Shown: piece by piece, positions 1,425 to 3,974 of the stretch
Layout of the letters: every line of letters begins with the position of its first letter
Numbering within the stretch: the stretch's first letter is position 1
Source: Desulfobacterales bacterium
GTDB lineage: Bacteria > Desulfobacterota > Desulfobacteria > Desulfobacterales > BuS5
Length of the DNA stretch: 5,405 bases
Assembly: GCA_016735355.1 (NCBI GenBank)
Contig: JAERRQ010000280.1
Span: forward strand, 1-5,405
Direction: 5' to 3'
Position numbers and translations under genes: made by a program
Notes under the pieces: model-generated
The model's database searches: none
What the model was told of the DNA's origin: nothing
Seen by the model: only the letters and a program-made list of their open reading frames with translations

Positions 1425-2720
1425 ATGTATGGTCAATCAGTTGTAAATTCAAAAGATTTTGATAATGCACTAAAAGTGGGACGTCCGCCGAATGTGGTGA
1501 AACTGTTCCCCAACTCCAGGGCTCTTATAGTCAGCGGCAAATTTATAGACAGGGCGATGATCGTAAAAGGCAATGCGATGACAATAGCGGCGAACGCCAG
1601 AAGCCGCCTTGTTTTACAGGGAGCCTTGCAGGCTGCCCAGAGGGCCAATGCCGCTGTAATTATTGAAATAGCAAAGTCGGAAGGCGGGGCAAATGCATAC
1701 TGTGCCGTAAACTACTGGAACATTGCAATGATGGCTGATGCGATCTGCAACCAGCTTGGTATTACAGTTCCTGTGGCCATACATGCTGATCACTATGGAA
1801 TAAAGAGTGATGAAGATGTGCAAAAAGCAAGAACAGAGATTCCTTCAATGTTTGATGCAGGCATTACATCCATTGCCATAGATGCGTCTCATCAGCCTGA
1901 TGACCTAAATCTGCTTTCAAATATTGCATTAAATCCAATGGTGCCGGAATGGGCGGGCCTTGAGACGGAAGTCGGTGAGATAAAAGGGAAGGCCGGGCTC
2001 TCAACTGTTGAAGAGGCTCTGTTTCTTATACAGGGTCTAAATGCTCATAATATTTTTCCGGACTGGATAGCATTAAATAATGGAACCACCCATGGAATCG
2101 AAGCGAGCTCGCAGGGTATCCAGATCGATTTAACAACCGAAATTCATAATGCTTTGGAAAAGTATAAAGTGTCAGGCGCTCAGCACGGCACCTCCGGGAA
2201 CAGCTCGGAAAGACTGAAAAAAATTGTTTCTGTTACAAGAACCACCAAGGCCAATGTCGCAACAGCACTTCAGATGATTGCCTGGGGTCTGGAGGTCAAT
2301 GACTACGGCAATGCTATACTCGATGATAACGGTAATTTTACCAAAGTTAAAGGGGAAGGACTAACTGGTGAACTCTGGTCCGAGATGGTCTCCTATGCTG
2401 ATGCCAACGGTATTAAAGGCGGTAATTACAAAAAGCTGAATTTAGTCTTTGAAAATAAAATTATGGGACAGCCTGCTGAGATCAGATCAAGAATGGCCGG
2501 GAGGGTAGAGGATTTTGTTTATAACCTCCTTGTAAATGTTTTTAATGCCGCTGATACAGCCCCTCTCTGTATAGATACCATACTAAAAGCCGGCTCATTC
2601 GACCCCGGTACTCGGGTGAACAGAATTGAGTCTCCTGAAGAATGGACAGAGGAAAAGATCAAAAAGCGCGCTTCTTTAATCACAAGCAATAAAGGGCCGG
2701 ATGGCGATTTTGACGATTAA
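1425..2720 (+). CDS. fba: Class II (metal-dependent) fructose-bisphosphate aldolase family protein, long form
   Basis: This looks like a zinc-dependent class II aldolase, which cleaves or forms fructose 1,6-bisphosphate (DHAP plus glyceraldehyde 3-phosphate) in glycolysis and gluconeogenesis in the cytoplasm. Visible landmarks are AIHADHYG at 118-125 (catalytic Asp122 and metal ligand His123, corresponding to the HTDH motif of E. coli), the ETEVGEIKGKAG acidic segment at 180-191, and two further metal histidines in NNGTTHGI (His223) and SGAQHGTSG (His254, with the phosphate-binding Gly/Ser loop). KANVATALQMIAWG at 275-288 corresponds to the E. coli NIDTDTQ segment. At 431 aa it is clearly longer than the usual 280-360 aa; the extra length sits at both ends. 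Two features differ from standard FBA: both Asp residues after the conserved Asn (Asn277) are Ala, and the N-terminus carries about 30 extra residues. The family is secure. The substrate is most likely FBP, but another ketose bisphosphate is possible. The gene is first in an operon with the Nudix gene. Confidence 0.88.
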   Translation: MYGQSVVNSKDFDNALKVGRPPNVVKLFPNSRALIVSGKFIDRAMIVKGNAMTIAANARSRLVLQGALQAAQRANAAVIIEIAKSEGGANAYCAVNYWNIAMMADAICNQLGITVPVAIHADHYGIKSDEDVQKARTEIPSMFDAGITSIAIDASHQPDDLNLLSNIALNPMVPEWAGLETEVGEIKGKAGLSTVEEALFLIQGLNAHNIFPDWIALNNGTTHGIEASSQGIQIDLTTEIHNALEKYKVSGAQHGTSGNSSERLKKIVSVTRTTKANVATALQMIAWGLEVNDYGNAILDDNGNFTKVKGEGLTGELWSEMVSYADANGIKGGNYKKLNLVFENKIMGQPAEIRSRMAGRVEDFVYNLLVNVFNAADTAPLCIDTILKAGSFDPGTRVNRIESPEEWTEEKIKKRASLITSNKGPDGDFDD

Positions 2721-2722
2721 TC

Positions 2723-3223
2723 ATGCCTGAGAAAACAAATTGTCATTTTTGCGGTTCATTACTTACAAAAAAATTTTACGACGGCCGGGATCGTCTTTTT
2801 TGTGAAAAATGTAATGAACCTATCTACGAAAACCCGCTGCCGGCCACATGCATTGTGCTGGTCGACGACAATGAAAGGTTGTTGCTGGTAAAGCGCAGCG
2901 TTGAGCCTAAAATCGGCCACTGGTGTCTGCCCGGCGGGTTTATTGAAATCGGAGAATCACCGGAAAAGGGTGCCTTGAGAGAACTTCAAGAGGAGACCGG
3001 CCTGTCAGGCCGGATTGAGACCCTCCTTGGCGTTACCGCCACCACCAGTTCGCATTATAGTTCCATCCTGATGGTGGGTTATCTGGTTAAAAAATATGCC
3101 GGAACTCCTGTGGCCGGTGACGATGCAATGGATGCGGCTTTTTTTGAGCATGACAAGCTGCCCGAGATTGCATTTGACAGTCACCGAAGTTTTGCCAGAA
3201 TATATTACGCAGCTTATCGTTAA
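2723..3223 (+). CDS. Nudix hydrolase with N-terminal zinc ribbon
   Basis: Nudix enzymes hydrolyse a nucleoside diphosphate linked to another group, X (for example ADP-ribose, NADH, NTPs), using Mg2+. The 166-aa product begins with a zinc ribbon, CHFC at 7-10 and CEKC at 27-30, followed by the Y-x-NP motif (YENP, 35-38) typical of the Nudix_N_2 type. A complete Nudix box follows: Gly72-x5-Glu78-x7-Arg86-Glu87-Leu88-x-Glu90-Glu91-x-Gly93-Leu94. Length is normal for this two-domain type. The start lies 2 nt after the fba stop with no clear Shine-Dalgarno of its own, so translation is probably coupled to fba. The substrate cannot be told from sequence; similar proteins are annotated as ADP-ribose or NADH pyrophosphatase-like. 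Its stop codon overlaps the stop of the convergent selenoprotein gene by 4 bp. Confidence 0.93.
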   Translation: MPEKTNCHFCGSLLTKKFYDGRDRLFCEKCNEPIYENPLPATCIVLVDDNERLLLVKRSVEPKIGHWCLPGGFIEIGESPEKGALRELQEETGLSGRIETLLGVTATTSSHYSSILMVGYLVKKYAGTPVAGDDAMDAAFFEHDKLPEIAFDSHRSFARIYYAAYR

Positions 3224-3903
3224 TGCGAGACTTTTACAATTTCAGAATCATAAACTGGTATTTGAGCCTCAACTGCTTTTTTAAGCGCTGCAGCATGTAT
3301 CTCGCCTGCTAAATGGACTGGACTTTTTGCGTATATTGGATCCCATCCGGCCGGGTCGGCAGTGCAGAAAAACTGTGCTTCAATGCCCATTCTTATTATT
3401 CCTTCTTCAACCTGCATATTCAGCACTCGCCGGATAGCATCCCAGGTTGCTCCGCAGGGAGCCCCTCTTTTTATGGTAATATCAACAAACTTACCATCAC
3501 ACACCTTAACCGTGAATTCTGGCGCTCCGAATTTTTCACCATAGGTTCCCAGGCAGACCTGCCTGGAAAGCCAGCATCAGGTGGGAGGTATAAAGACTCC
3601 CGGAAAGCGCATTTTTTTTCCGGGACTGACAACAGGAATATTTTTTTTCATACACATTTTTGCCAGATCGTAGGAAAGATCAAGATGTTTTAGATAATCG
3701 AGAACCAGATCCGCCTTTATGTCATCCGGCAGGTATCCGGAAGTGTCGTCAATGACCGGGGGAAGTTCTTCATCAATGGAGCAAGTTTCCAGCCTGAAAA
3801 GATTGTCACCATGTTGCCTTATACCTTTTATTTTGCTTTCTCCGCTCCCGTTTTGCTGAAAAATCAAAATATGCTGGGTCTTTGTGTTAGTATTTTTATG
3901 CAT
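3220..3903 (-). CDS. dfsP: DUF166 family selenoprotein (UGA-encoded Sec109)
   Basis: A single minus-strand frame is interrupted by one UGA (3577-3579) that I read as selenocysteine. Upstream, residues 11-108 contain FQQNGSGESKIKGI, LPPVIDD, YLPDDIKADLVLDYLKHLDL and IPVVSPG. Downstream in the same frame come CWLSRQVCLGTYGEKFGAPEF, KRGAPCGATWDA (145-156), QFFCTADPAGWDPIY and KSPVHLAGEIHAAALKKA. These are as I remember the DUF166 (PF02593) family, whose bacterial members carry Cys-Cys where this protein has Sec109-Cys110. Further cysteines at 117, 150 and 180 suggest metal or redox chemistry, but the family's function is unknown. Total length is 227 aa including Sec. I chose ATG 3903 (GGAA 6 nt upstream); an in-frame TTG at 3948 would add 15 residues but has no Shine-Dalgarno. 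A SECIS hairpin and a strong promoter accompany it. The symbol dfsP is from memory of NCBI naming for this family. A nonsense-mutated pseudogene is the alternative, made unlikely by the hairpin and the intact frame on both sides. Confidence 0.88.
3546..3579 (-). promoter_or_regulatory. Bacterial SECIS element with its Sec UGA codon
   Basis: On the minus-strand mRNA the UGA at 3579-3577 is followed by a 10-bp stem (UUUCCAGGCA at 3569-3560 with UGCCUGGGAA at 3555-3546, one U-G pair) closed by the tetraloop GGUC (3559-3556). The loop begins 17 nt after the UGA and opens with GG followed by U, as SelB requires. The ten bases GCAGGUCUGC across the apex match, as I remember it, the E. coli fdhF SECIS apex exactly. 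The stem lies inside the coding sequence, as bacterial SECIS elements do. This is the decisive evidence that UGA is recoded here and not a stop. Confidence 0.9.
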
Positions 3904-3974
3904 AAATATTTCCGTGTTTATAAATGTTGTCTCCGATTTTCTGTACAACGGAGCAATTTCTTAAAAAAATAAAT

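Follow-up and report, generated by a model that had tools for sequence, protein, structure and literature searches.

The closest described relatives of the gene considered here belong to DfsP, a branch of the DUF166 family that is entered among the selenoprotein families in PMC9312934 and PMC13188914, where the DfsP table rows give neither a function nor a selenocysteine (Sec) motif. No function of DUF166 is assigned in the literature searched, in which the name occurs only in lists of selenoprotein families. A further point of comparison is CooC, the described nickel-insertion ATPase of carbon monoxide dehydrogenase (CODH) (PMC6006190), which has no sequence relation to DfsP; for the latter, Pfam gives DUF166 only. 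Here we analyzed a stretch of 5,405 nucleotides (nt) from a Desulfobacterales bacterium (assembly GCA_016735355.1, contig JAERRQ010000280.1; hereafter, the window), in which an earlier note, made from the letters alone, had pointed to a DUF166 selenoprotein hidden as two split open reading frames (ORFs). We find that the gene is a dfsP and predict, on the basis of comparison with related loci, that its in-frame UGA at 3579-3577 is almost certainly decoded as Sec. Since the name DfsP is already present in NCBIfam and in print, the family is not new; the dfsP of the window is a new sequence within a catalogued family, and nothing distinguishes it within DfsP. The new part of the analysis is a functional lead to metal-sulfur cluster assembly.

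A dfsP gene with an in-frame UGA

Positions 3903-3220 of the minus strand form a single reading frame that is interrupted once, by the UGA. The two ORFs of the earlier note (3948-3577 and 3504-3220, minus strand) lie where it had placed them: they are halves of this one frame, and the gap between them consists of the UGA and 24 sense codons. Reading through the UGA yields a product of 227 residues, in which the UGA is residue 109. The start is likely the ATG at 3903 (MHKN...), which by eye has a GGAA stretch 5' of it, rather than the TTG at 3948. That the protein is of DUF166 type was borne out by Pfam (PF02593, 123.6 bits; gathering cut-off 24.4), and the read-through protein aligned in full, over positions 1-203 of 203, with the NCBIfam model of (seleno)protein DfsP in the DUF166 family (NF041372; 323.7 bits, curated cut-off 200). 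The name DfsP, which the note had put forward, is the correct one. In a hidden Markov model search of the whole genome, the DUF166 domain appeared as one match containing exactly '1 TGA'. Within the 24-codon joining segment, the window differs from a locus of the same genus (L071) at four codons, all synonymous, and from a second (L019) by seven synonymous and two non-synonymous differences.

The position of the UGA was then compared across 64 DUF166-type loci, comprising 60 genome stretches, three further loci and the window. An internal UGA is present in 25 of them, every one in the same alignment column, and three further UGA genomes beyond this set (L061, L062 and L065) have it in an agreeing column. 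The column holds Sec (25) or Cys (28) in the 53 loci of the DfsP branch, and Phe (7) or Leu (4) in the 11 distant loci, which are canonical, non-DfsP members. The proposal that the UGA directly precedes a Cys codon where relatives have Cys-Cys is therefore right for DfsP, but not for the wider DUF166 family, where the pair is Phe-Cys or Leu-Cys. As anticipated, residue 109 is Cys in 114 of the best 120 of 761 homologs; it is Trp in the other six, as might be expected if a UGA had been translated with a different genetic code.

Were the UGA a genuine stop, the locus would be either a pseudogene or a pair of separate proteins, or else the UGA would be an error of sequencing. A standard ORF listing does yield two ORFs, and selB and tRNA-Sec fall below cut-off in the window's own assembly (see below). 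However, two genomes of the same genus (G001 and G002) have the same UGA in dfsP, as do another 22 of the 64 loci, without exception in one column, the frame is intact across it, and the hairpin described below distinguishes Sec from Cys loci. A genuine stop is thus already contradicted, and we consider it scarcely credible.

On a tree of 62 rows, built with the UGA column removed, Sec requires at least eight changes, four of them forced by supported branches, indicating that Sec and Cys have been swapped for one another repeatedly. Even if the role proposed below is wrong, this Sec/Cys comparison provides a clean set on the gain and loss of selenocysteine sites. One genome (G135) carries both a Sec dfsP (L076) and a Cys dfsP (L077).

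A SECIS-type hairpin and the decoding machinery

The constraints given for bacterial Sec insertion sequence (bSECIS) elements include an apical loop of 3-9 nt, an upper stem of 4-16 bp, a G in the first two loop positions, a UGA-to-loop distance of 16-37 nt and a minimum free energy (MFE) of at most -7.5 kcal/mol (PMC13188914). The hairpin that the earlier note had seen after the UGA is present and lies within every one of these published limits, with a 4-nt GGUC loop, a 10-bp stem, a spacing of 17 nt and an MFE of -17.9 kcal/mol over 50 nt. Its shuffle z-score is just -1.86, with 13 of 200 shuffles folding equally well; what makes it convincing as a putative SECIS is not this score, but the way in which Sec loci differ from Cys loci, together with the paired changes in its stem.

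With positions numbered in nt after the UGA, the loop has GG at 18-19 in 25/25 Sec loci vs 7/28 Cys loci and reads GGUC in 21/25 vs 0/28. Five stem pairs are likewise more frequent in Sec loci: 16-23 (25/25 vs 8/28), 15-24 (18/25 vs 9/28), 14-25 (24/25 vs 20/28), 12-27 (24/25 vs 11/28) and 11-28 (24/25 vs 9/28). Pairs 13-26 (13/25 vs 11/28) and 17-22 (11/25 vs 13/28) do not separate the two types of loci. In a count of pairs, 83.3% of cells are paired, vs a shuffled mean of 78.2. Changes on both sides of a pair occur in seven cells, which was matched by 0 of 500 shuffles, and affect three pairs, which was matched by 7 of 500, both being comparisons that relatedness can inflate; a stem G-C pair is replaced by A-U in L019. 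The loop resembles the SECIS loop of E. coli fdhF. A SECIS-like stem and a GGAU loop are also kept by one Cys dfsP (L020, 5029-5658; TGT at the Sec column), the sister of the Sec locus L021, and this hairpin has probably been left over from a Sec site that recently changed to Cys.

SelB and the Sec-tRNA would read the UGA by means of the hairpin. The note's check for selA, selB and selC in the host gave a mixed result. The assembly that holds the window has a size of 2.2 Mb and is 82.8% complete; it contains selA (615.5 bits), while none of selB, selD and tRNA-Sec was found above cut-off in it, the best tRNA-Sec match being a tRNA-Trp; this counts against Sec decoding. A selB gene and a tRNA-Sec with the anticodon TCA, the two genes that the search of relatives covered, are present in G001 (97% complete) and G002, and we infer that the absence from the window's assembly reflects missing sequence. 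With the exception of these missing machinery genes, the predicted selenoprotein passes every completed comparative test.

G001 also contains a second SelB-like gene (L028, 733-2619, minus strand; also L036), which is 43% identical to the first across 362 residues. It directly adjoins a second, shorter tRNA-Sec (2707-2798, anticodon TCA), and the two neighbor an ORF that by eye resembles a reverse transcriptase. They are perhaps a mobile Sec-decoding pair.

Conserved residues, gene neighbors and a possible role

We compared three groups of DUF166 homologs, taking the best 120 each of 761 (DfsP), 2313 and 207 matches. Cys150 and Cys180, which the earlier note had called conserved, are invariant in all three groups, as is Cys110 (Table 1). 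Residue 109 is Cys in 95% of the DfsP group and Phe in 99% and 98% of the other two. At residue 177, DfsP has Gln, where the other two groups have His (99% in canonical members). Canonical PF02593 members thus share Cys110, Cys150, Cys180 and His197 with DfsP, but differ from it in having Phe/Leu109, mostly Val/Ala84 and His177 where DfsP has Sec/Cys109, Cys84 and Gln177. Because the three Cys and the His are kept while residue 109 varies, they constitute the core, with Sec an addition beside it. One DUF166 group (P0243-P0362, including L126), whose records bear names such as Nitrospirota and Actinomycetota, has an N-terminal extension with a Cys-rich CNGCxxDCDxCRDK stretch.

In the IscU scaffold, three Cys and a His ligate a cluster. 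When the predicted C-terminal domain of DfsP was searched with Foldseek, IscU occupied ranks 1-12, with weak E-values, and in a weak profile comparison the CG motif at Cys150 aligned with IscU Cys63 in every DUF166 group. DfsP is like the N-terminal scaffold domains of IscU/NifU in a weakly similar predicted C-terminal fold, in this CG motif and in having three Cys, and unlike them in its Cys spacing and in an extra domain, the N-terminal half of the model (residues about 6-124) being Rossmann-like.

Canonical DUF166 genes lie within clusters for CODH and acetyl-CoA synthase (CODH/ACS), on the same strand, at 7 of 11 loci (three f18, four f38). In the f18 loci, all from one genus, DUF166 is found between cdhA and cdhB, and the cdh genes score above their family-model cut-offs (models run on L117). 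In the f38 loci, the order is cdhC, cdhD, cdhE (names transferred from the f18 genes, to which tblastn gave 30-43% identity), an AcsV-like gene (match below model cut-off) and a CooC-like MinD-type ATPase gene, directly followed by DUF166. A CooC-like gene shares the cluster in 7 of the 11 canonical loci. At two f21 loci (L120 and L121; family models run on L120, with L121 similar), DUF166 is preceded by a SufC-like gene (192.7; cut-off 212.8) and a SufB-like gene (165.1; cut-off 346.4), the latter passing Pfam SUFBD_core. Overall, 9 of 11 canonical loci have CODH/ACS or SUF-like neighbors, and L126 and L127 have neither in the fetched stretch. We take COG1810 to be DUF166. Two Methanococcus maripaludis entries that are close in number, MMP0976 (COG1810) and MMP0984 (CO dehydrogenase), appear in a 2007 table under a heading that reads, footnote marks aside, as proteins specific to all methanogens and Archaeoglobus fulgidus.

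The f18 genus, g22 (L117, L118 and L124), has a cdhA-cdhB-cdhC-cdhE-type CODH/ACS set in a bacterial Wood-Ljungdahl cluster, which also holds FolD-like genes and NuoE- and NuoF-like genes (NuoE-, NuoF- and NuoG-like names were assigned by eye from translations). DUF166 may have arrived in g22 together with the CODH/ACS set.

Across the phylum, 84 of 395 genomes have a DUF166-type match (E 0.001), 58 of them above the DfsP cut-off, and 268 of 395 have the ACS domain. ACS is present in 76/84 DUF166 carriers vs 192/311 other genomes (p 1.5e-7, with the overlap counted by eye and lineage not removed). Within family f38, the numbers are 5/6 carriers vs 3/9 non-carriers (by eye), and most other families show no variation. 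In the window's own family, ACS is found in G001 and G003 and is not shown in G000 and G002.

The gene neighbors of the relatives and the predicted fold lead us to suggest metal-sulfur cluster assembly as the role of DfsP, an assignment that we regard as tentative and somewhat doubtful. The explanation as a whole, a dfsP with a Sec-decoded UGA whose protein would be a scaffold on which iron-sulfur (Fe-S) or Ni-Fe-S clusters are assembled or repaired, is nearly an even call, with doubt slightly ahead. Cys110, Cys150, Cys180 and His197 would hold a metal or cluster, and the Rossmann-like N-terminal and IscU-like C-terminal halves would make up a two-domain carrier. Sec109, with the DfsP-only Cys84, would provide an added ligand or a reducing or sulfur-handling group beside Cys110. 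Canonical DUF166 would serve CODH/ACS jointly with the CooC-like ATPase, and members of the DfsP branch would act in a similar way for some client of their own. In its most specific form, in which DUF166 with its two domains and three cluster-binding Cys serves CODH/ACS maturation with CooC, and DfsP is a Sec-containing cluster scaffold whose branch placed selenium beside the first Cys, the proposal is on the unlikely side. If true, DUF166 would be a missing factor of CODH/ACS maturation, a metal chemistry central to the Wood-Ljungdahl pathway, and DfsP an example of a cluster scaffold that contains selenium.

Several observations weigh against a cluster-assembly role. All fold and profile comparisons with IscU are weak, whether by E-value, Z or hhalign probability, and Pfam-A reports DUF166 alone for DfsP, with no match to the IscU/NifU_N family at E 0.001. 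The name CooC-like rests on sub-cut-off MinD-type matches and on position, no CooC-specific model having matched. CODH/ACS or SUF-like neighbors occur in 0 of 53 DfsP-branch loci within the fetched stretches, which extend at least 5 kb on both sides in 32 of the 53. Among DfsP loci, L020 and L021 instead adjoin molybdopterin-oxidoreductase and HdrA-like genes, and the Cys dfsP L077 is flanked by two HdrA-type genes.

Such electron-transfer settings would suit a selenol/thiol redox enzyme (a reductase, a peroxidase or one of disulfide exchange) with a Sec109-Cys110 active site, which neither builds nor carries a cluster. Sec109 adjoins Cys110, with Cys84 as a further Cys of DfsP, and most selenoprotein families are thought to act in redox reactions (PMC9312934). 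Yet other groups retain Cys110, Cys150, Cys180 and His197 with Phe or Leu at residue 109, so the family's basic work is independent of the Sec-Cys pair, and the CODH/ACS and SUF-like neighbors of 9 of the 11 canonical members also speak against a redox enzyme, which we judge unlikely. Alternatively, instead of acting as Fe-S scaffolds, DUF166 proteins, DfsP included, could chaperone or store a metal such as nickel for CODH/ACS and enzymes like it, with Sec tuning metal affinity. The CooC-like gene directly before DUF166 in the four f38 loci and the extra His177 of canonical members are consistent with this, but DfsP has Gln at that residue, and the SufC/SufB-like neighbors in f21 and the weakly IscU-like C-terminal fold favor Fe-S handling, leaving a metal chaperone distinctly unlikely.

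Features of the window

Table 1. Coordinates of dfsP and its features in the window.
Feature	Position	Strand	Description
dfsP coding sequence	3220..3903	minus	227 residues when the UGA is read as Sec; likely start ATG 3903; stop TAA 3222-3220; NF041372 and PF02593
In-frame UGA, residue 109, predicted Sec	3577..3579	minus	Column of all 25 internal UGAs in 64 loci; Cys in DfsP relatives
Bacterial-type SECIS hairpin (putative)	3546..3569	minus	Stem of 10 bp (nt 8-17 paired to 22-31, counted from the UGA); apical loop GGUC, 3559-3556
Cys110, neighbor of Sec	3574..3576	minus	120/120 in each of three groups
Cys150, APCG motif	3454..3456	minus	120/120 in each group; aligned with IscU Cys63 in weak profile comparison
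Cys180	3364..3366	minus	120/120 in each of three groups
His197	3313..3315	minus	99-100% in all three groups
Cys84	3652..3654	minus	99% in DfsP group only; mostly Val/Ala in other groups
C-terminal domain, residues 100-216	3256..3606	minus	Predicted fold weakly IscU-like; model pLDDT 92.7, pTM 0.86

Elsewhere in the window, positions 1425-2720 (plus strand) encode a 431-residue class II aldolase-like protein (Pfam 87.2 bits, above cut-off), which 15 NCBIfam models match, all below cut-off. A perfect inverted repeat, with arms of 16 bases and a gap of 2 bases, is found at 53-86.
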